A DNA stretch of 64,000 nt from positions 1 to 64,000 of the forward strand of contig CALAIL010000048.1 of assembly GCA_937923255.1 (NCBI GenBank), in the 5' to 3' direction. Every line of letters starts with the position of its first letter. Positions within the stretch are counted from its first letter, which is position 1. Below are positions 276 through 61,273 of the stretch, piece by piece. The notes beneath the pieces were generated by a model. It saw only the letters and a program-made list of their open reading frames with translations, searched no databases and was not told where the DNA came from. The stretch comes from an uncultured Propionivibrio sp. (GTDB lineage: Bacteria; Pseudomonadota; Gammaproteobacteria; Burkholderiales; Rhodocyclaceae). The position numbers and the translations under genes are program-made.

Positions 276-1640
276 TTAGATCCAGCCCAGGGTATTGGCG
301 AAGACGAGCAGGATCGCCAACGGCGCAAGGTAGCGCAATGCGGCCAGCCACAAGGCAGGCAGGGCGGATGCGGCGCTGCTGCCTTCGCGCATGTGCTGGA
401 GTACGTCGGTCTTTTGTTGGCACCAGCCGGTAAAGAGGGCGATGCACAGGGCGCCGACGGGCATGATCCACGCCGTGATCAGGTAGTCCCACAAATCAAA
501 GACGGTCTTGCCGAAGAAAGTCAGCTCTTTCCACGCGCCGAATGACAGCGCGGAAGGAATGCCAACGATAAAGATTGCCGTGCCGATCAGCCAGGTGTGA
601 CTGCGACGTTTGCCCTGGTTGTCGCGGATCGAAGAGGCGATCACCGTTTCCAGCATGGCGAACGCGGAGGTCAGGGTCGCAAACGAAACCAGCACCATGA
701 AAACGCCGAACAGCAGCCGGCCAAAAGGAATTTGCATGAAGACGGCGGGCAGCACCACGAAAATCAACCCCGGCCCCTGACCCGGCTCGAAACCGAGGGC
801 AAAAACCGCAGGAAAAATGACCAGACCGGCGAGCAGCGAAATCAGCAAATTGAGCCACATGACGCTGTTGCCGGCGCGGAAAACGTCCTGGTCCCGGCCC
901 AGATACGCCGCGTAAGTGATCATCGCCGAGACGCCGATGCTCAGTGCAAAGAACGCCTGGCCGAGCGCGATCAGCATGGTTTGCGGGTTCAGGTAGCGCC
1001 AGTCGGGCTTGAGCAGGAATTCGACGCCTTTCATCGCGCCCGGCAGCGTCAGCGAGCGTACGGCCAGCACGAGAAAAAGGATGAACAACGCCGGCATCAG
1101 ATACCGGTTGGCTTTTTCGATGCCTTCGGCAATGCCGCCTTGAACGACGGCGATCGTCAGCAGCATGAAAACCGCTTGGTAAGCCAGCGCGTTGGCCGGG
1201 CTGGCAATGGTTGCGCCGAACAGCGCCCCAAAATCCGCACCTGGATGTACTGCGCCGCTAAAGGCATGCACCACATAATTAAGCACCCAGCCGCCGACCA
1301 CGCTGTAAAACGACAGCAGCACAAAGCAGGCCGCAACGCCCATGCGCCCGACCCACGGCCATTGGCTGCCGGGTGCCAGCGTTCTGAATGCATCTACGGC
1401 GTTTTTGCCGCTTTTGCGACCGATATAAAATTCGGCCAGCAACACGGGCAGGCCGATCAGCACCGTAAATAACAGGAAGAGCATAAAAAAGACGGCGCCG
1501 CCGTTGGTGCCGGCCGTGTAGGGAAATTTCCAGATCGCGCCTAGGCCGATGGCCGAGCCGGCGGCGGACAGAATAAACCCGATTCGGGAAGACCATGAAG
1601 TAGATGCAGTAGATGCGGATGTGGACGCGGAAGTTTTCAT
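276..1640 (-). CDS. Sodium-dependent neurotransmitter:sodium symporter (SLC6/NSS family)
   Basis: A 454-residue inner-membrane protein with about eleven hydrophobic segments. The first helix carries the family signature around residues 20-45 (SAAGSAIGLGAIWKFPY followed by an NGG stretch), where bacterial NSS proteins unwind to bind Na+ and substrate. Bacterial members (LeuT, MhsT, TnaT types) usually import amino acids with Na+; the substrate here cannot be read from sequence. The N-terminus is unusually rich in Ser and Thr (residues 3-17). No strong Shine-Dalgarno is visible before the ATG at 1640. It is divergent from the degQ-like gene and ends at hairpin array A. Confidence 0.9.
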   Translation of the reverse strand: MKTSASTSASTASTSWSSRIGFILSAAGSAIGLGAIWKFPYTAGTNGGAVFFMLFLLFTVLIGLPVLLAEFYIGRKSGKNAVDAFRTLAPGSQWPWVGRMGVAACFVLLSFYSVVGGWVLNYVVHAFSGAVHPGADFGALFGATIASPANALAYQAVFMLLTIAVVQGGIAEGIEKANRYLMPALFILFLVLAVRSLTLPGAMKGVEFLLKPDWRYLNPQTMLIALGQAFFALSIGVSAMITYAAYLGRDQDVFRAGNSVMWLNLLISLLAGLVIFPAVFALGFEPGQGPGLIFVVLPAVFMQIPFGRLLFGVFMVLVSFATLTSAFAMLETVIASSIRDNQGKRRSHTWLIGTAIFIVGIPSALSFGAWKELTFFGKTVFDLWDYLITAWIMPVGALCIALFTGWCQQKTDVLQHMREGSSAASALPALWLAALRYLAPLAILLVFANTLGWI

Positions 1641-29504: not shown

Positions 29505-30083
29505 ATGGAAAATCTGGAGCGAGTTAAAGCCGGTTTTTACCGTCTGCTGGAAATCATTATGGTCATCACCATGATCGTGATGTTTGTGCTGGTTTTCATC
29601 AACGTCATGTTGCGGATGATTTTTAACACCGGTATCGATTTTGCCGAAGAGTTGCCGCGCTTTGCCTTTATCTGGATGACCTTCATTGGCGCAATCATCG
29701 GCATGCACAAACATACCCATCTCGGCGTAGATATGCTGGTGGCAGCCTTGCCTGTGCTGGGGCGCAAGATCTGCTGGGGCATCAGCCAGGTCATCATGAC
29801 CGTTTGCAGCCTCTACATGTTATATGGCACCTGGTTGCAGCATGAAATCATCGCTTCCAATGCCTCGGCCGTCATGCAGATGAGCATGCTCTGGGTGTAC
29901 GGCGTGAGTTACCTGACTGGCACCGCCATCACCATAATCTGCCTTTCCAACCTCGTTCGCCTTTTCCTTGGGCAAGTCGACGAAAGTGAGCTGGTCGATG
30001 TGCAGGAAGAGGGCATGGAGGACGCGCATGAAGCGCAGAGGGAAATTAAAGAGCAGATGCATCGTGAAGGGGGACAGCCATGA
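29505..30083 (+). CDS. dctQ: TRAP transporter small permease (DctQ family)
   Basis: A 192-residue membrane protein with four helices and the family motif FAEELPRFAFIWMTFIGA (about residues 46-63). The C-terminal 40 residues are charged and cytoplasmic, longer than in many DctQ. GGAAGG sits before the ATG. It overlaps dctM by 4 nt. Confidence 0.93.
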   Translation: MENLERVKAGFYRLLEIIMVITMIVMFVLVFINVMLRMIFNTGIDFAEELPRFAFIWMTFIGAIIGMHKHTHLGVDMLVAALPVLGRKICWGISQVIMTVCSLYMLYGTWLQHEIIASNASAVMQMSMLWVYGVSYLTGTAITIICLSNLVRLFLGQVDESELVDVQEEGMEDAHEAQREIKEQMHREGGQP

Positions 30084-31360
30084 TCGTCTTTATCTTCATC
30101 GTCTCGCTGCTCGGACTCATGGCGCTCGGCATGCCGATTGCCTTCGCGCTGGTCGGCTGCGGCCTGTGCATGATGTATTACATGGGGATGACCGATCCGC
30201 AGATCGTCATCCAGAACATGTGGGACGGCGCTAACAGCTTCCCGCTACTGGCTGTTCCTTTCTTTATGCTGGCCGGCGAGTTTATGAACGCAGGCGGCAT
30301 GACGCGACGCATCATTGCGATGGCCATGGCCTGGGTTGGCCATATCCGCGGTGGGTTAGGCTACGTCGCCGTCATGGCAGCGGTCGCCATGGCAGCGCTT
30401 TCCGGTTCGGCTGTCGCCGATACGGCGGCGCTGGCAGCAGTGCTGGTGCCGCTGATGCGCAATGCCGGCTATAACATCAGCCGCTCTTGCGGCCTGATTT
30501 CCTGCGGCGGCCTGATCGCGCCGATCATTCCGCCCTCGATCGGCTTCATCCTGTACGGCGTTACGGGCAACGTATCGATTACCAAGCTGTTCATCGCCGG
30601 TATCGTTCCCGGCGTCCTGATGGGTGCTTCGATCATGCTCGCTTGGTACTGGTGCACGAAAAACGACCCGATGCGGATCGAACCCAAAATGAGCATGCGC
30701 CTGCGTTTGCAGGAAACGCGCAGGGCCGCCTGGGCATTGGTGCTCCCCGTTGTTGTCGTGGGCGGCCTGAAAATCGGCGTATTCACGCCGACTGAAGCTG
30801 CGGTCATCGCGGCATTTTATTCATTGGTTGTCGGCCTGTTCATCTACCGCGAGATCAAGCTCTCACAATTATTCGGATTGTTCCTCAAAGCCTCGGAAAC
30901 GACGGCGGTCATCATGTTCCTCGTCTCGGCGGCCGGCGTATCGGCCTGGCTGATCACGGCAGCCGATATTCCGGGGCAACTCGCCCAGATGGTCGAGCCG
31001 TTCATGGGTAACAAGATGCTGCTGACCTTCATCCTGATGGTGCTGGTCATGCTCGTCGGCACGGCGCTGGACATGACGCCGACAATCCTGATCATGACGC
31101 CGGTACTCATGCCCGTGCTCAGGCAAGCTGGAATTGATCCAGTCTATTTTGGCGTATTGTTCATGATCAACAACGCTATCGGACTGGTGACACCGCCGGT
31201 GGGGACTGTGCTCAACGTCGTTTGTGGCGTAGCGCGCGTGTCGATGAGCAGCGCCATTTCAGGCGTCATTCCTTTCATGATCGCCCAGTTTGCCGTCATG
31301 TTCCTGCTTGTTTTCTTTCCTGACATCGTTATGCTGCCGCTCCAGTGGATGACACGCTGA
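30080..31360 (+). CDS. dctM: TRAP transporter large permease (DctM family)
   Basis: A 426-residue membrane protein with about twelve helices. Typical motifs are the FALVGCG start, the VPFFMLAGEFMNAGG segment (about residue 60), LIAPIIPPSIGFILYG (about residue 150) and GLVTPPVGTVLN (about residue 370). It carries the Na+-coupled transport path and works with DctQ and DctP. Hairpin array B follows its stop. Confidence 0.95.
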   Translation: MIVFIFIVSLLGLMALGMPIAFALVGCGLCMMYYMGMTDPQIVIQNMWDGANSFPLLAVPFFMLAGEFMNAGGMTRRIIAMAMAWVGHIRGGLGYVAVMAAVAMAALSGSAVADTAALAAVLVPLMRNAGYNISRSCGLISCGGLIAPIIPPSIGFILYGVTGNVSITKLFIAGIVPGVLMGASIMLAWYWCTKNDPMRIEPKMSMRLRLQETRRAAWALVLPVVVVGGLKIGVFTPTEAAVIAAFYSLVVGLFIYREIKLSQLFGLFLKASETTAVIMFLVSAAGVSAWLITAADIPGQLAQMVEPFMGNKMLLTFILMVLVMLVGTALDMTPTILIMTPVLMPVLRQAGIDPVYFGVLFMINNAIGLVTPPVGTVLNVVCGVARVSMSSAISGVIPFMIAQFAVMFLLVFFPDIVMLPLQWMTR

Positions 31361-31442
31361 AGGCAGAGACAACTCCCAACCCCGCGCCGCAGCCGGCTGG
31401 GCATCATTGCCGCACTCCTTGCGGAATGTGAGATATAGGAAG

Positions 31443-31848
31443 GGTGCCCGGGAAGCCCTTGTAGATAGGGCGTTTCCGGGCAGGCACCGCTGGAACCCGC
31501 GTGGATAAAGGGTCTCCGGGCAGGGCGCCCGGAGATGCCTTATTTACAAGGGTTTCAGAGCTCTCTCCCCGGAGAAGCCCTAAATACGTGGGCTTCCGGG
31601 CAGTGGATTTTGGAAGCCTGCTGTCCATCAAGCCTAAAACGGTGCCCGGCCAGTGCCTCCATATTCCTGCCGCCCACCAACAATCCACCGCTGGAGCCCG
31701 CGTAAACAGGGCGTTTCCCGGCAGTCGCCGCTGAAACCCGCATGGATAAAGGGTCTCCGGGCAGGGTATTCTGAGATGCCTTATTTACAAGGGTTTTAGA
31801 GCACCCTCCCCGGAGAAGCCCTAAATACGCGGGCTTCCGGGCAGGGGG
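31443..31848. repeat. Hairpin array B (~40-bp period, duplicated)
   Basis: Located between convergent dctM and asnS. Modules start at 31468, 31510, 31550 and 31590, separated by linkers such as TTATTTACAA (31540-31549) and TAAATACGT (31581-31589). After an irregular stretch (about 31619-31690) the same four-module series returns from about 31709 to 31848 with few changes, so the array was duplicated. The best hairpin is TCTCCGGGC / GCCCGGAGA (31513-31535). The remaining gap 31361-31442 shows only small dyads. Confidence 0.88.
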
Positions 31849-31917
31849 CGGTGAGTCAGTAGTTAGCCGGCAGCCGATCGGTAATCTGGCGGATTGCCCG
31901 AGTTTCAGTAGCGCCCT

Positions 31918-33318
31918 TTAGTAGCGTGCATTGCCCGGCGTTCTGGGGAAGGGGATCACATCGCGGACATTGGCAAGCCCCGTGAGATAGGAAATTGTCC
32001 GTTCAAAGCCGAGGCCAAAGCCAGCGTGCGGTACTGTCCCATAGCGGCGCAGGTCGCGATACCAGGCGTAATGCGTCGGATCGAGGCCGGTTTCGGCGAT
32101 GCGCGCATCAAGAATATCCAGACGTTCTTCGCGTTGTGAGCCGCCGATAATTTCGCCGATACCGGGTGCCAGCACATCCATTGCCGCCACGGTTCTGCCA
32201 TCGTCGTTAAGGCGCATATAAAACGCCTTGATCTTTTTCGGATAGTTCATAAGCACCAGCGGCCCTTTGACGTACTTTTCGGCCAGATAGCGCTCATGCT
32301 CGCTTTGCAGATCGGCGCCCCAATAAACGGGATACGTAAAACCCACGTTTGCCGATTCGAGGATCTTGATCGCTTCACCATAGTCCATGCGCACAAAGTC
32401 GCTGTCGATCATGCCTTGCAGCTTGGCGATGATGCCTTTCTCGACGCGGTCGTCAAAGAAGGCCATGTCATCGGCACGCACGTCAAGCACCGTTTTGAAT
32501 ATATATTTAAGCAGCGCCTCAGCCAACGCGGCATTGTCGTCGAGATTGGCGAAGGCGATTTCCGGCTCGATCATCCAGAATTCAGCAAGGTGCCGGCTGG
32601 TGTTCGAATTCTCGGCACGAAAGGTTGGGCCGAAGGTATACACCTTTGACATCGCCATGCAGTAGGCTTCGACGTTCAACTGACCAGAGACCGTGAGATA
32701 GGCTTCACGCCCGAAAAAATCCTTGGAAAAATCGACTTTCCCTTCGGCCGTGTACGGCAAATTCATCATATCCAGCGTCGACACACGGAACAACTCGCCC
32801 GCACCCTCAGCGTCAGAGGCGGTGATGATCGGTGTATTGACCCAGAAAAAGCCATTTTCGTCGAAAAAGCGATGGATGGCCTGAGCGATCGTATGTCGCA
32901 CGCGCGTTGCTGCGCCGATGACGTTGGTGCGCGGTCTTAGATGGGCAACCTCGCGCAGGTATTCCATCGTATGGGGCTTGGGCTGAATCGGGTAAGCGTC
33001 CGGATCGTCGACCCAGCCGACGACCTTGATTGCCGTCGCCTGCATCTCGAAGGCCTGTCCTTCAGCGGGTGAGGGCACGATCATCCCCGTTGCCTCGATG
33101 GCGCAGCCCGTCGTCAGATGACTGATTTCATCCGCATAATTTTCCAGACTTTCCGGCGCAACGATCTGCATCGGGCGAAAACAGGAGCCGTCCGAAAGCG
33201 CGATAAAAGAAATGCCCGCTTTGGAGGCGCGCCGAGTGCGCACCCAGCCTTTGACGACGACAGGTTGATTGGCAGGCGCCTTGCCATCGAGAATTTGTCT
33301 GACGCTAAAGGTTTGCAT
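31918..33318 (-). CDS. asnS: Asparaginyl-tRNA synthetase
   Basis: A 466-residue class IIb synthetase. The N-terminal anticodon-binding OB fold ([22 protein letters not shown]) is followed by the catalytic core with motif 2 ([15 protein letters not shown], about residue 235) and motif 3 ([15 protein letters not shown] near the end). Asn-tRNA synthetase is recognised over AspRS by length and by the AENSNT motif. It lies 9 nt behind lysS on the same strand. Confidence 0.95.
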
Positions 33319-48572: not shown

Positions 48573-49293
48573 GTGGCACTCACGCCCTCTTCTACCGACG
48601 CATGGAAGAATCTGCAAAGCACACAAAATGGTTCGTTCTCGACCCGTGCCCGGCGTTATCGTCGTCTGCGCAATGCCGTGATCGGCAGCGAGCTCCCGCC
48701 TGACCATACCTTGTCCACAGCGGAGATCGCACGATAATTCCCAATGAACCGGCAACCATGCACAAAGCCTGCATCCAGTTAGCAGAAGAACGACAAGGGG
48801 TCATTCAACCGCAGCGCGGCACCTTCGTTGTCAAGATTTCCGTCGAGGACGTGCTCGACGCCTGCTTTGTTCGGGAAGCCATTAAAGTAGCCATCGTTGC
48901 CGATCTGGCGGCATTGGCCGCGCCCGCAGCGATACGCATGTTGCGGGAAATCCTGCGACAGCAGCGTCAGTTCCGGCATGGCCATAATGCCGAATTTCTG
49001 GCGTTCGATGAACAGTTCCAGCGTGCGCTGGTCCTGTCCGCGGGGGGCTACGCCTGGCGGACTATCGAAAACATCAAGGCGCAGATGGATCGCACCCGCT
49101 ACCTGAGCCTCGATAATGCGACGCCGATTCCTCTGCTGATCAAACGTACAAGCGGATTGTCGATGCGATCGAATCGGGCGATCCGGACGCGACATCCGCC
49201 GCCGTCCGCACGCACATGCAGCAAATCGTACAATCGCTGCCAGAAATTGCCCGGAAATTCCTGGATATGTTTGAATCGCGCAGAACAGCCTGA
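48573..49293 (+). pseudogene. Decayed GntR/FadR-type regulator
   Basis: Read across frames, this is a GntR regulator: winged helix (YRRLRNAVIGSELPPDHTLST ... RQP-HKACIQLAEE), then an FCD ligand domain ending EIARKFLDMFESRRTA at a stop at 49291-49293. Three lesions break it. TAA at 48735-48737 stands where CAA would fit. A base is missing near 48755-48757, between codons for RQP and HKA. A further frame change occurs around 49125-49145. It is divergent from manD, so it was probably the repressor of the manD-dlgD and ABC genes. Confidence 0.8.
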
Positions 49294-49310
49294 CGGCGCT
49301 GGATAGCGCA

Positions 49311-49494
49311 TCGCCGGAGAAGCGCCTGGAACCCCTTATAGACAGGGCTTCTCCAAGGGGATGCTTGGACCCCTTTGTAAACAGGGCATTTGGTGGGCAC
49401 CTGCCCGGAGATCCTTTATCCACGCGGGTTTCCGATAAGGTGGGCTGGAAATGCCCTATTCGCGCGGGTTTCCGAGCACCCGCCCTACCGGCCC
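49311..49494. repeat. Hairpin array C (~40-bp period)
   Basis: Modules start at 49345, 49384, 49426 and 49466, with linkers TTATAGACA, TTTGTAAACA, TTTATCCACGC and TATTCGCGC. Less regular than arrays A and B. It lies between the regulator pseudogene and the ankyrin gene, which converge. Confidence 0.8.
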
Positions 49495-49516: not shown

Positions 49517-50272
49517 TCAGGTTGGCGGAGCGGCGGCTTGTGGTTGCGGCTGCGCTTCGGGCTCTTTATCCTTGCCCGCGTCCTTGTCCTTGCCTGAGCG
49601 GGCGCCCGCCGCCCGGAGAAGCTCAATGGTTGCCCCGTTATTTTCGGCCTTTTGCGCCGCATCGATCGCCGTTTCCTGGCGCTGATCGGCAATCGATGGG
49701 TCAGCGTGATGCTTCAGCAACAGCTTGACGATATCTGTGTGTCCATAACGCGCAGCGAGGAAAAGCGGCGTCGCACCCGTTTCCGTTCTGGCATTGATGT
49801 TTGCACCCTTTTCTATCAGATATTCAACAACTTGCGGGTGATTGTTAAATGCCGCGTAAGCAAGCGGCGGCCACCCCGGAAAATCAATTCTTGCACCTGC
49901 CTCGGCGAGCCGCCGCACATATTCCAGCTTGCCGAGATAGGCGGCGATACTGATCGCTGTCTCGCCGCTACGATTGCGGAAATCCAGGCGCGGGCGCCGT
50001 TTCAGTAACGCATCGAATAATTCGGGCATATCTTCACGCACGGCCTGAATAAGCAGCGTATCCCCCTGGCGATCGACCGTATTGACATCCATGCCGCGTT
50101 TAAGCAGGTCGATGACATCGGACGTATTACGGCGAATCATCGCCGTTTCCATGTCTTCGTAAGCGCCTGCCTGCGCCGATAGCGGCAGCGCAGTCAGGCA
50201 CGACAGAAACAAGAAGCGCGCCAGACAGGATCGCGCGAGGGATGATGCGGCGGCGTAGCGAAATTGTTTCAT
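49517..50272 (-). CDS. Exported ankyrin-repeat protein
   Basis: A 251-residue protein with a signal peptide (LFLSCLTALPLSAQAGA) and five to six ankyrin repeats (about residues 40-215), the clearest being TGATPLFLAARYGHTDIVKLLLKHHADP. The tail is rich in Lys, Asp, Pro and Gln. Ankyrin repeats bind proteins; a periplasmic partner is likely but unknown. The ATG at 50272 overlaps the tatD stop by 4 nt, so the pair is coupled. Confidence 0.88.
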   Translation of the reverse strand: MKQFRYAAASSLARSCLARFLFLSCLTALPLSAQAGAYEDMETAMIRRNTSDVIDLLKRGMDVNTVDRQGDTLLIQAVREDMPELFDALLKRRPRLDFRNRSGETAISIAAYLGKLEYVRRLAEAGARIDFPGWPPLAYAAFNNHPQVVEYLIEKGANINARTETGATPLFLAARYGHTDIVKLLLKHHADPSIADQRQETAIDAAQKAENNGATIELLRAAGARSGKDKDAGKDKEPEAQPQPQAAAPPT

Positions 50273-51051
50273 GGCGTGATTTTCTTTCTGGCCGTAGGAA
50301 ACAGCCGGAAGCAATTATGGGTCGTGGCATGTGCTACTTCGTCAAAAGCGATATCACGCAAACGGGCGATTTCCTCGGCCACGTATCTGACGTAACCGGG
50401 TTGGTTGATCTTTCCACGATAAGGTACGGGAGCCAGATACGGCGAATCCGTTTCCACCAGCAGGCAATCGAGCGGCACTTTGCGGGCAACTTCTTTGACC
50501 TGCGCCGCATTCTTGAAGGTGACGATTCCAGAGAAGGAAAGGTAGAAGCCCAGATCGAGAAATTTTTGCGCCATTTCCCAACTCTCGGTAAAACAGTGCA
50601 TGACGCCCCCCGCTTCATTTGCCCGCTCCTCAACCAGCAGATGCAGAATATCTTCCGTCGCTTCGCGGTTATGGATCACCAGCGGTTTACCCAGCTCACG
50701 CGCGGCGCGGATATGCGTCCGAAAACGTTCGCGCTGCCATTCCGGGCGATCCTTGTGCCAGTAATAATCCAGGCCGGTTTCGCCGATGGCGACGACATCC
50801 GGATGTTGCGCCAGTTCGCACAACGCGGGCAAGGACGCTTCCTGAACGTCCGTATTTTCAGGATGTACGCCCACCGTCGCCAGCAGGTTCGGGTGGCGTT
50901 CGATCAGCGCCAGGATGCTGGGGAAATCTTCGATCGTCACGCCAACGCAAATGGCTCCGCCGACCCCATTTTTCGCCATTTCTGCAAAAATTTCTGCGTG
51001 TTTGCCAGCCAGATCGGGCAAATGGAGGTGGCAGTGCGAGTCAATCAGCAT
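50269..51051 (-). CDS. TatD-family metal-dependent hydrolase (YcfH-like)
   Basis: A 260-residue TIM-barrel nuclease. Metal ligands: DSHCHLH at the N-terminus, GETGLDYYWH (Glu about residue 91), the His of VIHNRE (about 125), HCF (about 150) and ETDSPYLAP (Asp about 202). YcfH-type TatD proteins lie near holB and tmk in many bacteria, as here. DNA or D-aminoacyl end-processing has been proposed for the family. Confidence 0.93.
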   Translation of the reverse strand: MLIDSHCHLHLPDLAGKHAEIFAEMAKNGVGGAICVGVTIEDFPSILALIERHPNLLATVGVHPENTDVQEASLPALCELAQHPDVVAIGETGLDYYWHKDRPEWQRERFRTHIRAARELGKPLVIHNREATEDILHLLVEERANEAGGVMHCFTESWEMAQKFLDLGFYLSFSGIVTFKNAAQVKEVARKVPLDCLLVETDSPYLAPVPYRGKINQPGYVRYVAEEIARLRDIAFDEVAHATTHNCFRLFPTARKKITP

Positions 51052-55819: not shown

Positions 55820-56430
55820 AACCGCCGCAAAACAGCCAATATCGGCTGCCCTCTTCCTTGCCCGAATCCAAATCTGAAAACGACTCACCAGAAACCGCAT
55901 GCCCTCGGCTTTGCCCATGTGCCTGATGCTGATGACCCGGCAAGCGCGCGTATCTCCCGGCAAGCGCACTGGCAGCCGCTCACCGTGACGCATTTTATGA
56001 CCCGCTCATTACGCTCATTACGTCTGCCGCCTTCTGCCCGGATGCTCTTCAAATCCTCGCTGGCAGCTGGCTGAACACCATGCACAACGCCCGTCGCAGC
56101 CTTGACAAACGGTCGTGATTACCATCTATTGCAACACGGCGATACGTCTTTGCTCAGCGTGCAGGTAATCTGCGCGTTGAAGGCCAATTGGCGCTTTAGC
56201 TTTCCGGGCGACCATGCTTGCACGGACCCAGCATAGGCCAGATCGCCCTGAAGCCCCCCGTATTGGCGGGCTTTTCAACCACAGATTAGCGATGTCCTGG
56301 CTTCAGCGGTCCGCCACCCAAGGCGTTTTTGCGCGTACACTGGTGTCTTCACCGGGAAATCCGCCAAAAAGCTTGCCACGTTCTTGGGATTGCCGGCCGG
56401 CAGCATCACGCCTGATGAGAGTGTAAGCGC
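55820..56430. other. 610-nt gap, possibly a gene remnant
   Basis: No intact gene. Short frames break repeatedly and show no family I recognise. TTGACA (56102-56107) and TCTATT (56125-56130), spaced 17 nt, form a possible promoter about 300 nt before the flavoprotein gene. Confidence 0.4.
56102..56130 (+). promoter_or_regulatory. Possible promoter of the flavoprotein-DegT unit
   Basis: A perfect -35 box TTGACA with a 17-nt spacer and a four-of-six -10 box TCTATT. It is the best candidate upstream of the three-gene unit, but leaves a 5' leader near 290 nt in which I see no structure. Confidence 0.4.
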
Positions 56431-57966: not shown

Positions 57967-59240
57967 ACCATCTAACCAACGCCCCGACTGCCGAGCAACC
58001 GGTCATTCTTGGCGGCAATCCGGCCGTCACACTGGATCAGGAGGCCGCCAACCGCTGGCCCGTCCTGACGACGGACGATGAGCGGGCGGTCATCCAAATC
58101 CTGCGTGATGGCGACATTTCAACTCATCCCGTGATTCGGCAACTGGAACAGGATTACCGAGAATTTTCGGGTCTGCCCTATGCGCTTGCACACTGTAACG
58201 GCACGTCGGCGCTGATGGCTGCTTTCTGGGCGATCGGCCTTCAGCCAGGAGATGAAGTGTTGGTGCCTTCGGCCACTTTTTGGGCATCTGTTCTCCCGTT
58301 GGTCTGGCTGGGCGCCGTGCCGGTTTTTTGCGAAAGCGAACCCGAACGGCTCGGCCTCGATCCGGTCGATATGGAAAAAAGGATCACCGCGCGCACCAAG
58401 GCCATCGTTGTCGTGCATTTGTGGGGCATGCCGTCAAAAATGACAGAAATCAAAGCCCTGGCGAAAAAACATCACCTCAAAATCATCGAAGACGCATCGC
58501 ACGCACAAGGCGCCTCATGGCGGGGCCAGGCGTGCGGCACCCTGGGCGATATTGCCGTGTTCAGCCTGCAAGGCGGCAAACTGGCGCCCGCCGGCGAAGG
58601 CGGCATGCTGTTGTGCAAGGATAGGGATTATTGGGAGCGTGCGGTCTGCTTTGGCGATATTACCCGCATCATCGAACTGGAAACGCCCGCGCGCCGCTTT
58701 GCCGCCACCAGCTTCGGTATCAAGACGCGAATTGCGCCTGTCTCCGCTGCCATCGCCCGCACCCAACTGGCCAGGCTCGCCGAAAACAACCAACTTCGCA
58801 ACAGCAATCTGCAATACCTCTCAGCCGGGCTGGAAGCCTTGGGCATTCATACCTTTCTCCCCCCGCCCCATATCGAACGGGTCTATTTTGAATATCTGGT
58901 CAGACCCGATTTCGCTTCGATTGGCTTGTCGAAACAATCTTTCATCAAGGCGCTACAGGCGGAAGGCTGCCTGGCCGCCCTGCCCCGCTACCCGCTGCTG
59001 CATCAGCAGCCCTTCTTCACTGAAGGGGCATTCATGGCAGTCATGCGTCCCCAGGGCGGACAAACACCGGATTATTCGTCGGTGTCACTTCCCGTCACCG
59101 AGGCCGCCAACGATAGCATGATGAAACTCCCTTCTTTTCCCTGGGCTTCACGTGAATTGCTGGATCAGTATCTAACGGCATTCGAGAAAGTGATTCGGCA
59201 CGCTGACAAAATCGCCCGGCACTTCGACGAAAAAAGATGA
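57963..59240 (+). CDS. DegT/DnrJ/EryC1/StrS-family aminotransferase
   Basis: A 425-residue PLP enzyme. It shows the NGTSAL substrate/PLP segment (about residue 79), the Asp of EDASHAQGA (about residue 178) that contacts the pyridine nitrogen, and the Schiff-base lysine Lys206 in FSLQGGKLAPAGEGGM. Members aminate keto-sugars on nucleotides or, less often, small keto compounds. No nucleotide-sugar genes are nearby; its coupled partner is the GlpD-like oxidase. Its start overlaps that gene and its stop overlaps the next. Confidence 0.88.
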   Translation: MNHLTNAPTAEQPVILGGNPAVTLDQEAANRWPVLTTDDERAVIQILRDGDISTHPVIRQLEQDYREFSGLPYALAHCNGTSALMAAFWAIGLQPGDEVLVPSATFWASVLPLVWLGAVPVFCESEPERLGLDPVDMEKRITARTKAIVVVHLWGMPSKMTEIKALAKKHHLKIIEDASHAQGASWRGQACGTLGDIAVFSLQGGKLAPAGEGGMLLCKDRDYWERAVCFGDITRIIELETPARRFAATSFGIKTRIAPVSAAIARTQLARLAENNQLRNSNLQYLSAGLEALGIHTFLPPPHIERVYFEYLVRPDFASIGLSKQSFIKALQAEGCLAALPRYPLLHQQPFFTEGAFMAVMRPQGGQTPDYSSVSLPVTEAANDSMMKLPSFPWASRELLDQYLTAFEKVIRHADKIARHFDEKR

Positions 59241-59617
59241 TCCGGCTAAATGGGCGTGCGCTGTACCCCTTCCTGAATGTCGTCTTTCATGGGGTGCACA
59301 TTTCGATCATCCTTTTCGCCCTGCTTGGCTGGGTGCTGCCCTCGCTGCGACAACTGCATCTTGCCCTGCTTGGGCTGACTCTAGGCTCATGGTTCATTCT
59401 TGGACAATGGCTGGGAATCGGTTATTGCCCCATTTCGGATATGCACTGGAAGCTTAAGGAATCCTTCGGTGAAGGACGCCCCGAAGGAACGTACATCCAC
59501 TACGTACTGCAGAAACTAACCGGCAAAACACTGAGCTCTCCGCGCGTAGACAAAATGACTACGCGGGTAACGCTGTCGCTTGCGGCCTTATCGCTCACAC
59601 TGTGGCTGCTGGGGTAA
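59237..59617 (+). CDS. Small membrane protein, DUF2784-like
   Basis: A 126-residue protein with four hydrophobic helices. The order LHLALLGLTLGSWFILG, then GYCPISDMHWKLKESFG, with a C-terminal helix, resembles DUF2784 proteins, which have a CPL-type motif at this place. Similarity is from memory and modest. It is coupled by a 4-nt overlap to the aminotransferase, so it likely works with it at the membrane, for example as an anchor or exporter. Confidence 0.6.
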   Translation: MIRLNGRALYPFLNVVFHGVHISIILFALLGWVLPSLRQLHLALLGLTLGSWFILGQWLGIGYCPISDMHWKLKESFGEGRPEGTYIHYVLQKLTGKTLSSPRVDKMTTRVTLSLAALSLTLWLLG

Positions 59618-59639
59618 CGGATAAATAGCTTGTGGACAC

Positions 59640-59762
59640 CGCCTCTGAAACCCGCGTGGATAAAGGGTTTCCGGACAGGTGCCTGGAGATGCCCGATTGA
59701 CGCGGACTTCAGGGCGCCCTCCCCGGAGATGCCCTAAATACGCGGGCTGGCGAGGTGCGGTG
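59640..59762. repeat. Hairpin array D (~40-bp period)
   Basis: Modules start at 59665, 59704 and 59744. The flanking words match the other arrays closely: CCCGCGTGGATAAAGGG (59650-59667) is shared with array B, and CCCTAAATACGCGGGCTGG (59732-59750) with array A. It lies between convergent genes (the DUF2784-like gene and the ClC gene). Confidence 0.85.
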
Positions 59763-59776
59763 ACATTGGCAAAGTG

Positions 59777-61273
59777 TCAGGCTTGGCGCTGGCGGTCAAT
59801 CATCTGGTTGGCAAGACTCAGATAAAGCGGTGGTGAAATGAAGCGGGAAACAGTCGAAGCGATCAGGGCAGCGGCCATCAGTTCAAACACGATGGGGTAA
59901 CCCTCGACCATTTCCATGACGATGATGAAGGCGGTGATCGGCGCCCGCGTGGCGGCGGAAAGAAAGCCGACCATGCAGAGAACGATGAGGGCGCTGGGCA
60001 GCACGGCGCCGATTAGCGTGCCAGAAAACAGCGCGCTGATGTTCTGCCCCAGTCCCGCGCCGATAGCCAGCGACGGGGCGAAAATGCCGCCGGGCAGGCC
60101 GGAAAGATAGGCGGAAACGGTGGCAACGAACTTGGCCAGACCGAAGAACCATGGGATATCACCGTGGCCGTCAAGGATCGCATGGGTTTCGGTATAGCCG
60201 CTGCCCCAGGTCAGCCCGCCGCAGGCCCAGCCGAGCGTAGCGATGAACAGGCCGATCAGCGCGGCAAAAACGTAGGGATGTTCGGCACGCAGCCGGGCGA
60301 ACGGCCCGCGCCAGCCGGCGCCCCCCAGCACCAGTATACGGGCGAACAGACCGCCGGCCACGCCGCTAGCGACGGCACAGACCAGCACGGCGAGCAGCAG
60401 TCCGCCATCGGCCAGATAAACGTGTCCGTAATAGGCGTGATCGCCAAGCAAACTTTTGGCGAGCATTCCGGCAAGCGCAATGGCGGCAATCAGAACGCCG
60501 GACATGCGCGATTCGACATTGCGGAATAATTCTTCCAGCGCAAAAGCGATGCCGGCCAGCGGCGTATTGAAGGCCGCCGCAATGCCCGCCGCGCCGCCGG
60601 CCACGAGCAGATGGTGGCGCTGGATGCGCAGCGTCGCCGGCAGAAAGCGTTCGGCCGCCGCCATCAGGCAGGCGCCCACCTGCACGGTCGGCCCTTCGCG
60701 TCCAAAGGAAAAGCCCGCGCCTACCGCAGCAACGCCAATGAGCACCTTGCCGAAAGCGATGCGCAGCGAGACCAGCGGCCTCCAGACATTAACGACAGCG
60801 TACGGCCGACGCAGTTCGGCGATGACTTGTGGAATCCCCGAACCTTCCGCCCCCTGAAACCAGCGCCGCGTCACCCAGAGCAGCCCCGCGCCGGCCAGCG
60901 GCGAGATCAGGAATGGGGCCCACGGATAGCGGCCGGTTAATTCGATGAAAAGATGGGCGGCTTTATCGGTCAGCAGGGCAAAGCCAACGGCCGCCAGACC
61001 GACGGCCAGCGAGGCCAACCAGAATGCGCTGCGCCCCAGCCAGACACGCGACTGCGCCAGCAGATACGGCCAGCGCCGGCGCAGATCAGCCTGAATCAGC
61101 GCCACGTACCGCGCCAAAGGCGTCGCCCGCATCACTTGGGCATCCGGGTCGAATGAGGCGGTATTTTCTGCATCGGAATCGCCCGTCTCGGCAGTTTCCG
61201 CCTCGGCGCGCACGGCGTCCGCATGATCCGCGCTCCTGTCCGGATCTTGGCTTTTACGCCCGTCGGCATTCAT
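59777..61273 (-). CDS. ClC-family chloride channel/antiporter
   Basis: A 498-residue membrane protein. Family selectivity motifs are GSGIPQ (about residue 142), GREGPTVQVG (about residue 188) and GGIFAPSLAIG (about residue 395). The Glu of GREGP is the proton-gating residue, which suggests H+/Cl- exchange. It lacks C-terminal CBS domains. The N-terminal 50 residues are acidic and unrelated. Last gene of the tadA-ldt-clc unit. Confidence 0.92.
   Translation of the reverse strand: MNADGRKSQDPDRSADHADAVRAEAETAETGDSDAENTASFDPDAQVMRATPLARYVALIQADLRRRWPYLLAQSRVWLGRSAFWLASLAVGLAAVGFALLTDKAAHLFIELTGRYPWAPFLISPLAGAGLLWVTRRWFQGAEGSGIPQVIAELRRPYAVVNVWRPLVSLRIAFGKVLIGVAAVGAGFSFGREGPTVQVGACLMAAAERFLPATLRIQRHHLLVAGGAAGIAAAFNTPLAGIAFALEELFRNVESRMSGVLIAAIALAGMLAKSLLGDHAYYGHVYLADGGLLLAVLVCAVASGVAGGLFARILVLGGAGWRGPFARLRAEHPYVFAALIGLFIATLGWACGGLTWGSGYTETHAILDGHGDIPWFFGLAKFVATVSAYLSGLPGGIFAPSLAIGAGLGQNISALFSGTLIGAVLPSALIVLCMVGFLSAATRAPITAFIIVMEMVEGYPIVFELMAAALIASTVSRFISPPLYLSLANQMIDRQRQA

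Follow-up and report, generated by a model that had tools for sequence, protein, structure and literature searches.

Four arrays of a shared module lie at gene 3' ends

The window, by which we mean the whole 64-kb stretch of DNA that was analysed, carries 20 directional modules of approximately 36 nt, spread over four arrays (A1 to A4); this copy count covers the four loci on one contig. A covariance model, R1, was built from the 20 modules, and its matches are given below together with the genes whose 3' ends point towards the arrays (no strand is assigned to the arrays themselves).

58-251: array A1, five modules; R1 matches at 58, 98, 137, 177 and 216
276-1640, minus strand: sodium-dependent transporter gene (NCBIfam NF037979), 3' end towards A1
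30080-31360, plus strand: TRAP transporter large permease gene (TIGR00786), 3' end towards A2
31447-31601: A2a, the first A2 element, four modules; R1 matches at 31447, 31487, 31526 and 31566
31607-31687: A2 spacer, without module; no R1 match, between the two 153-nt copies
31688-31842: A2b, the second A2 element, four modules; R1 matches at 31688, 31728, 31767 and 31807
31918-33318, minus strand: asparagine--tRNA ligase gene, asnS (TIGR00457), 3' end towards A2
48758-49306, plus strand: FCD-domain regulator-like gene (PF07729), 3' end towards A3
49324-49477: array A3, four modules, aligning to A2 when inverted; R1 matches at 49324, 49363, 49402 and 49442
49517-50314, minus strand: ankyrin-repeat protein gene (PF12796), 3' end towards A3
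59237-59617, plus strand: DUF2784 gene (PF10861), 3' end towards A4
59642-59755: array A4, three modules; R1 matches at 59642, 59680 and 59720
59777-61273, minus strand: ClC-type chloride channel gene (NF003640, below the curated cut-off), 3' end towards A4

When R1 was run over both strands with filters off, all 20 modules were recovered at E <= 3.2e-7, these being by construction matches of the model to its own modules; no 21st module was found in the 64-kb window, the next best match (E 0.066) being the opposite strand of a module. The modules use both strands and share a mean identity of about 65%. Searches with consensus words yielded 4 matches against 0.00 expected and, in a second such search, 6 against 0.13. 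Module starts are 38-40 nt apart in the R1 frame and 39-42 nt apart in a GGG...CCC frame, the latter reproducing the period reported in an earlier note on this DNA; that note had also ascribed one shared design to the four arrays, which the R1 results bear out. Tandem Repeats Finder, applied to the window, did not list the arrays.

Two further features of the arrangement go beyond the earlier note. The modules follow an orientation rule, + and then - (A1, + + - - -; A2, + + - - [spacer] + + - -; A3, + + - -; A4, + - -), and A2 consists of two copies of a 153-nt stretch, which are 88% identical, have starts 241 nt apart and are separated by 88 nt. The interval 31607-31694, in which the A2 spacer lies, is flanked by an inverted pair, GTGGATT / AATCCAC, seen by eye.

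Three of the arrays occupy gaps between convergent genes

A2, A3 and A4 lie between convergent genes, as had been noted before, and A1 lies approximately 20 nt past the stop of the gene at 276-1640 (minus strand). With a codon-based caller the window contains 31 gaps of at least 40 nt, and the arrays occupy three of the 5 convergent gaps, none of the 21 co-directional gaps and none of the 5 divergent gaps (exact p about 0.002), a count that depends on a crude caller, one convergent gap being inflated by uncalled ORFs and another based on a doubtful ORF. A1 was left out of the count because its other neighbour lies beyond the window. Terminator-like sites, consisting of a GC stem and a T run, numbered one in A2 and none in A1, A3 or A4, near the shuffled expectation; simple intrinsic termination by the arrays, one form of the termination role raised earlier, is not supported.

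Several side observations concern the surroundings of the arrays. Around A2 (31360-31918) the gene strands change from mostly + to mostly -, and cumulative GC skew is maximal in the 28-36 kb bins of the window; this strand switch and skew peak may reflect a replication terminus or plain strand bias. The ankyrin-repeat protein (49517-50314) has three distant relatives in IMG/VR, at 31-39% identity, and a viral scan with a second window protein found no relative. For the DUF2784 protein (59237-59617), ten metagenomic homologues of 94-98% identity were found; close kin of the window's species are therefore present in metagenome assemblies.

A ~160-bp element is repeated at the four loci

Because + modules come first and - modules after, each array is a long inverted repeat; in A2 the inverted arms measure 74 nt, are 73% complementary and lie 5 nt apart. 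Elements of ~160 bp are colinear across the four loci, linkers included (five sequences, 174 columns, mean identity 74%), with A3 entering the alignment inverted and A4 without the first module. The nearest neighbour of a module tends to be one that holds the corresponding position, as is the case for a2m2, a2m6, a4m1 and a3m3, at 85-94%. From this colinearity and the closeness of position-equivalent modules, it appears that whole elements were probably copied between loci.

Such copying could also be accounted for by a MITE, in which a cut-and-paste transposase would have moved the ~160-bp inverted-repeat element as a whole and the 40-nt period would be internal only. The ~160-nt colinear homology between loci, the long inverted arms and the tandem copies in A2 are consistent with this reading; yet the number of modules varies, from three in A4 to five in A1, and the related units of another genome, G005 (see below), are mostly single and not ~160-bp elements. 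The MITEs ERIC, YPAL and NEMIS, named in PMC3733652, resemble the arrays in their size (70-300 bp), inverted arms and position beside genes, but differ from them in that the arrays are built of internal 40-nt modules without a demonstrated target duplication. We consider a MITE quite unlikely.

Long hairpins fold strongly, without signs of maintained pairing

For each of the five elements the long-hairpin fold was better than that of all 200 shuffles (A1 58-256, z -7.82; A2a 31443-31608, z -8.50; A2b 31685-31848, z -5.55; A3 49311-49494, z -3.45; A4 59637-59762, z -3.74), and these strong folds follow from the inverted order of the modules. Single hairpins were assessed in two module frames: compared with shuffles, the GGG...CCC units (n=16) gave a mean z of -0.48 and a median of -0.43, and the R1-frame modules (n=20) a mean z of -0.89, with five below -2.5. 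The 30-31-nt palindromes were previously read as hairpins; on average the GGG...CCC units do not stand out as such, though two of them do (z -4.18 and -2.17). RNAalifold found no consensus hairpin for the modules. Module arms pair above shuffled arms (10.45 vs 8.17), and a module's own arms have no advantage over those taken from different modules (10.45 vs 10.59). The palindrome belongs to the family as a whole and decays in single copies.

At the level of the element, the A2a structure holds in 78.8% of cells over the five elements, against 28-52% when slid, A2a being itself one of the five elements scored. No covariation was detected in the element pairing (69 of 500 shuffles reach the score); an element's own arms had no pairing advantage over swapped ones (18 of 120 permutations); and A2b retains 52 of 63 pairs where 50.1 are expected under random change, a value reached in 27% of simulations. 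All tests of maintained pairing were thus negative, and it is not supported.

These results bear on whether the arrays constitute a selected bidirectional 3'-end element, whose long hairpin would terminate transcription, protect mRNA or prevent polymerase collision. Seen from either of the facing genes the + + - - order is identical, and the transcripts of both would therefore carry one and the same long hairpin at their end; the occupation of 3 of the 5 convergent gaps and none of the 26 others, the + then - order of every array, the element folds (z -3.45 to -8.50) and a convergent bias in G005 all point in this direction. Set against them are the lack of covariation, the failure of own arms to surpass swapped ones, the near-random retention of pairs in A2b, the single terminator-like site across four regions, and the distribution in G005, where half of the strict intergenic copies are non-convergent and many copies lie in called ORFs. 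We regard a selected element of this kind as doubtful, and a termination or 3'-protection role of the arrays is unproven.

Related units are dispersed in the genome of a more distant relative

The window's AsnS has its top identities (76-81%) to AsnS of Burkholderiales genomes, and in an AsnS tree, read without four minus-strand loci which formed an artefactual outgroup, it groups with G367, G253, G001, G072, G155 and G192 (support 91/94). Among 28 genomes of this AsnS-nearest family, no module was found at E <= 0.001 in the 150 candidates scored out of 449-1131 per genome. R1 was also run over 399 Burkholderiales genomes with stricter filters, 17 candidates being scored per genome listed, and gave matches at E <= 1e-4 in three (G327, G005 and G281). 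Single near-module units were seen at L318 in G327 (30.2 bits) and L320 in G281 (27.7 bits), and a wider R1 look at these two genomes found no strong series of matches. G005 gave 15 matches at E <= 1 (top scores 29.1, 27.6, 25.3, 24.9, 20.6 and 19.7 bits), and 31 other genomes gave 0-9 each, with a best E of 0.0023; R1 E-values are rough, and the models were calibrated on little sequence. Nine R1 matches among the 31 genomes were inspected and judged to be chance. G005, a more distant relative, is the one genome of the 399 scanned to carry a clear series of related units.

Other searches added little. A 22-nt pattern had no exact match in GTDB representative contigs or IMG/VR; BLAST of A2 gave no match against three AsnS relatives, nor did A2 match plasmids, and across 29 AsnS-bearing genomes it produced 9 matches in 7 genomes (E <= 0.1, 19-48 nt), judged chance or unclear. 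The pattern CCCGYRTGGATAAAGGG, searched with two mismatches in 28 genomes, occurred at 38 places in 21 genomes, a search that was uninformative because the reversed-pattern control gave 21 matches.

A G005 profile was started from 12 seed copies and iterated across 40 stretches (761,615 bp); 13 of the 40 were picked for R1 matches, so that the copy density is biased upward. The number of copies found with the iterated profile was 78 at E <= 0.05, mostly as single units, and rose to 91 at E <= 0.5; five pairs of neighbours, of which three are parallel and two inverted, have a spacing of 39-45 nt. When applied to the window, the starting profile gave 21 matches at E <= 1, all 21 in arrays (15 of the 20 modules), and the iterated profile 13, of which 11 were in arrays; a model derived from the window had supplied the seeds, so that these matches are support and not independent proof. 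On 1.2 Mb of G072, the G005-derived profiles gave none at E <= 0.5. On average, the folds of the G005 units do not surpass those of shuffles (mean z -0.81, median -0.4).

The consensus of 48 strict G005 copies is TGCCCtGAAACCcTTGGTGGgAGCGGnTcTCcGG and that of the window modules TGCcCgGAAaCCCGCGTAaATAGGGCaTcTCCGGGCA; the arms agree, whereas the centres differ, GCGTAAATA in the window and TTGGTGGGAGC in G005. This difference weighs on the proposal that the arrays might be binding sites for a protein (gyrase or a nucleoid protein, for instance) where positive supercoiling builds up between convergent genes. A regular pitch near four helical turns would suit such a role, as would a module centre as conserved as the arms, with columns 14, 27, 30 and 32 invariant; a centre that changes between genomes while the arms agree would not. 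The word TTATCCAC, which resembles a DnaA box, is exact in just 3 modules; a DnaA-box reading was considered and dropped. A DNA-binding array is, in our judgement, very unlikely.

With respect to genes, the strict G005 copies (E <= 1e-3, n=48) comprise 15 in convergent gaps, 14 in co-directional gaps, 1 in a divergent gap and 18 in called ORFs, 9 of these 18 lying no more than 125 nt from the longest possible start. At E <= 0.05 (n=78) the corresponding numbers are 20, 21, 4 and 32, with 1 at an edge; the 41 copies measured at this threshold lie a median of 13 nt from the closest 3' end. Convergent gaps account for 22% of the gap length and hold 15 of the 30 strict intergenic copies (p 0.0008), and 1 of 30 is divergent, fewer than expected (p 0.0017). 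The enrichment between convergent genes that the earlier note had proposed as a check is therefore seen both in the window (3 of 5 vs 0 of 26) and in G005. Its claim that the arrays sit only at gene ends, against which it had counted copies inside genes, stands for the window and not for G005, where, with 18 of 48 strict copies in called ORFs, the copies are not confined to gene ends.

A 67-nt dyad repeat in the AsnS-nearest family

A second repeat was noticed during the search for relatives, a 67-nt dyad with ends AAACTC / GAGTTT and core GGGCGTTTTCAG...CTGAAAACGCCC. Among the 28 genomes of the AsnS-nearest family it was found at E <= 0.01 in 13 (G072, G192, G155, G408, G409, G410, G253, G001, G406, G407, G411, G412 and G413; 150 candidates per genome scored), and at 66 places in 1.2 Mb of G072 (loci L125-L144 and L248-L287), where it weakly favours convergent gaps (13 vs 8.8 expected at the middle threshold). 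In G001 a copy lies approximately 18 nt beyond the end of asnS. Fourteen loci of the repeat had no match in Rfam. Five G072 copies (L195, L201, L206, L209 and L214) have long identical flanks in common, which suggests segmental duplication, and at L201 the copies adjoin a long repetitive ORF that looks RCC1-type-like by eye. Y1 transposases do not track the repeat, being present in 12 of 13 genomes with it and 11 of 15 without, and the five in the examined part of G072 are at least 2.2 kb from the nearest copy.

Like the window arrays, the 67-nt repeat is an abundant hairpin, in its case in the AsnS-nearest family, and the word TTTATCCACG beside GGG is common to both; unlike them, it has the different ends AAACTC / GAGTTT. 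The model R2 gave six matches at E <= 10 on the window, four of them in arrays, and because the best reached only 14.2 bits (E 0.48), a common origin of the repeat and the arrays is unproven. A profile of 13 copies, selected by a word seen in the window, scored the arrays at 16.6, 9.4, 6.2 and 3.5 bits (reached by 0, 0, 1 and 15 of 500 shuffles), and one of 115 copies at 7.7, 5.7, 2.6 and 2.0 bits (0, 2, 23 and 17 of 500); with each of three 67-nt profiles, the real arrays outscored backwards arrays in 4 of 4 cases. Given the low scores and full-window E-values of 0.48 and 2, the G072 repeat was not adopted as the source of the arrays. A match to R3 at 56251-56329, with a fold z of -0.86, was set aside.

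Comparison with known repeats and interpretation

PMC3733652 describes REPs as tagged palindromes of 20-40 bp, in GTAG and CGTC super-families, lying mainly between unidirectional and convergent ORFs; dimers may fold as a single large stem-loop, and untypical families may have gone undetected. The present repeats resemble these as there described: they are repeats of 20-40 nt with a palindromic tendency, found singly, as dimers and in clusters, they are often intergenic, near gene 3' ends in unidirectional or convergent gaps, with some copies inside genes, and adjacent inverted units may form one large stem-loop. In the window and in G005 alike, convergent or unidirectional gaps are favoured and divergent ones avoided, and G005 holds 78 copies in 762 kb, 45 of them intergenic (13 of the 40 stretches having been picked for matches). 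The family consensus is dyad-like and its arms pair above shuffled arms. In contrast to GTAG and CGTC REPs, the tags are absent (GTAG in 1 of 20 modules and CGTC in 1 of 20, with array counts at or below shuffled means), single units are weakly palindromic, on average no better than shuffles, and no RAYT, the Y1 transposase associated with the GTAG type, was found when the window and 762 kb of G005 were searched by tblastn with 27 Y1 proteins.

BIMEs, according to PMC2817692, are REPs regularly spaced in alternating orientation, REPs there being tied to RAYT genes; the arrays share the regular spacing of palindromic-unit clusters and the use of both orientations, but are ordered + + - - and not alternating. 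REPs are frequent between convergent genes according to PMC1525189, as the arrays are, although species and sequences differ and no insertion sequences were seen in the arrays. As the tags are missing, the order does not strictly alternate and no RAYT was found, we class the arrays as REP-like rather than as members of the GTAG or CGTC super-families.

A CRISPR reading was dropped, the modules being ~65% identical, abutting at 38-40 nt and using both strands; an integron attC reading was considered by eye only and also dropped. Rfam gave 0 matches at gathering score in the window and three sub-threshold ones near A2 (E 0.5-1.3). The earlier note knew of no named family with this layout, and none matched in Rfam or in a search of open-access literature.

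The explanation that we favour, and hold to be fairly probable, is that the arrays are BIME-like clusters of REP-like palindromic repeats, probably a form of non-autonomous mobile DNA that is tolerated at the 3' ends of genes. The unit would be a REP-like sequence of ~36-40 nt with the dyad-like family consensus TGCCCgGAAACCC - centre - GGGnnTCTCCGGGCA, placed ~40 nt apart in both orientations and, in the window's lineage, assembled into the ~160-bp + + - - element, which would itself have been copied between loci, once in tandem. Copies would persist mostly just past stops or between convergent genes, where they would harm neither coding sequence nor promoters; mobility of the repeats and selection against other sites are inferred. 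Read-through transcripts would form the long hairpin, which might slow polymerase or exonucleases as a by-product. Among the roles suggested previously, that of a mobile-unit remnant agrees best with the data, given the dispersal of related units in G005; neither the Y1 search in the window and part of G005 nor a Pfam scan of 40 window ORFs, at the limits used, revealed a transposase. It seems unlikely that the + + - - clusters of a tagless Burkholderiales REP-like family would serve as an orientation-independent barrier, providing the same long terminal hairpin for both facing transcripts.

If this is only another dispersed repeat, its significance is moderate. A REP-like family without a GTAG or CGTC tag or a known transposase would bear on how REP-like repeats originate and spread, and its symmetric clusters at convergent junctions make possible a direct test between a safe landing site and a function for the facing genes.
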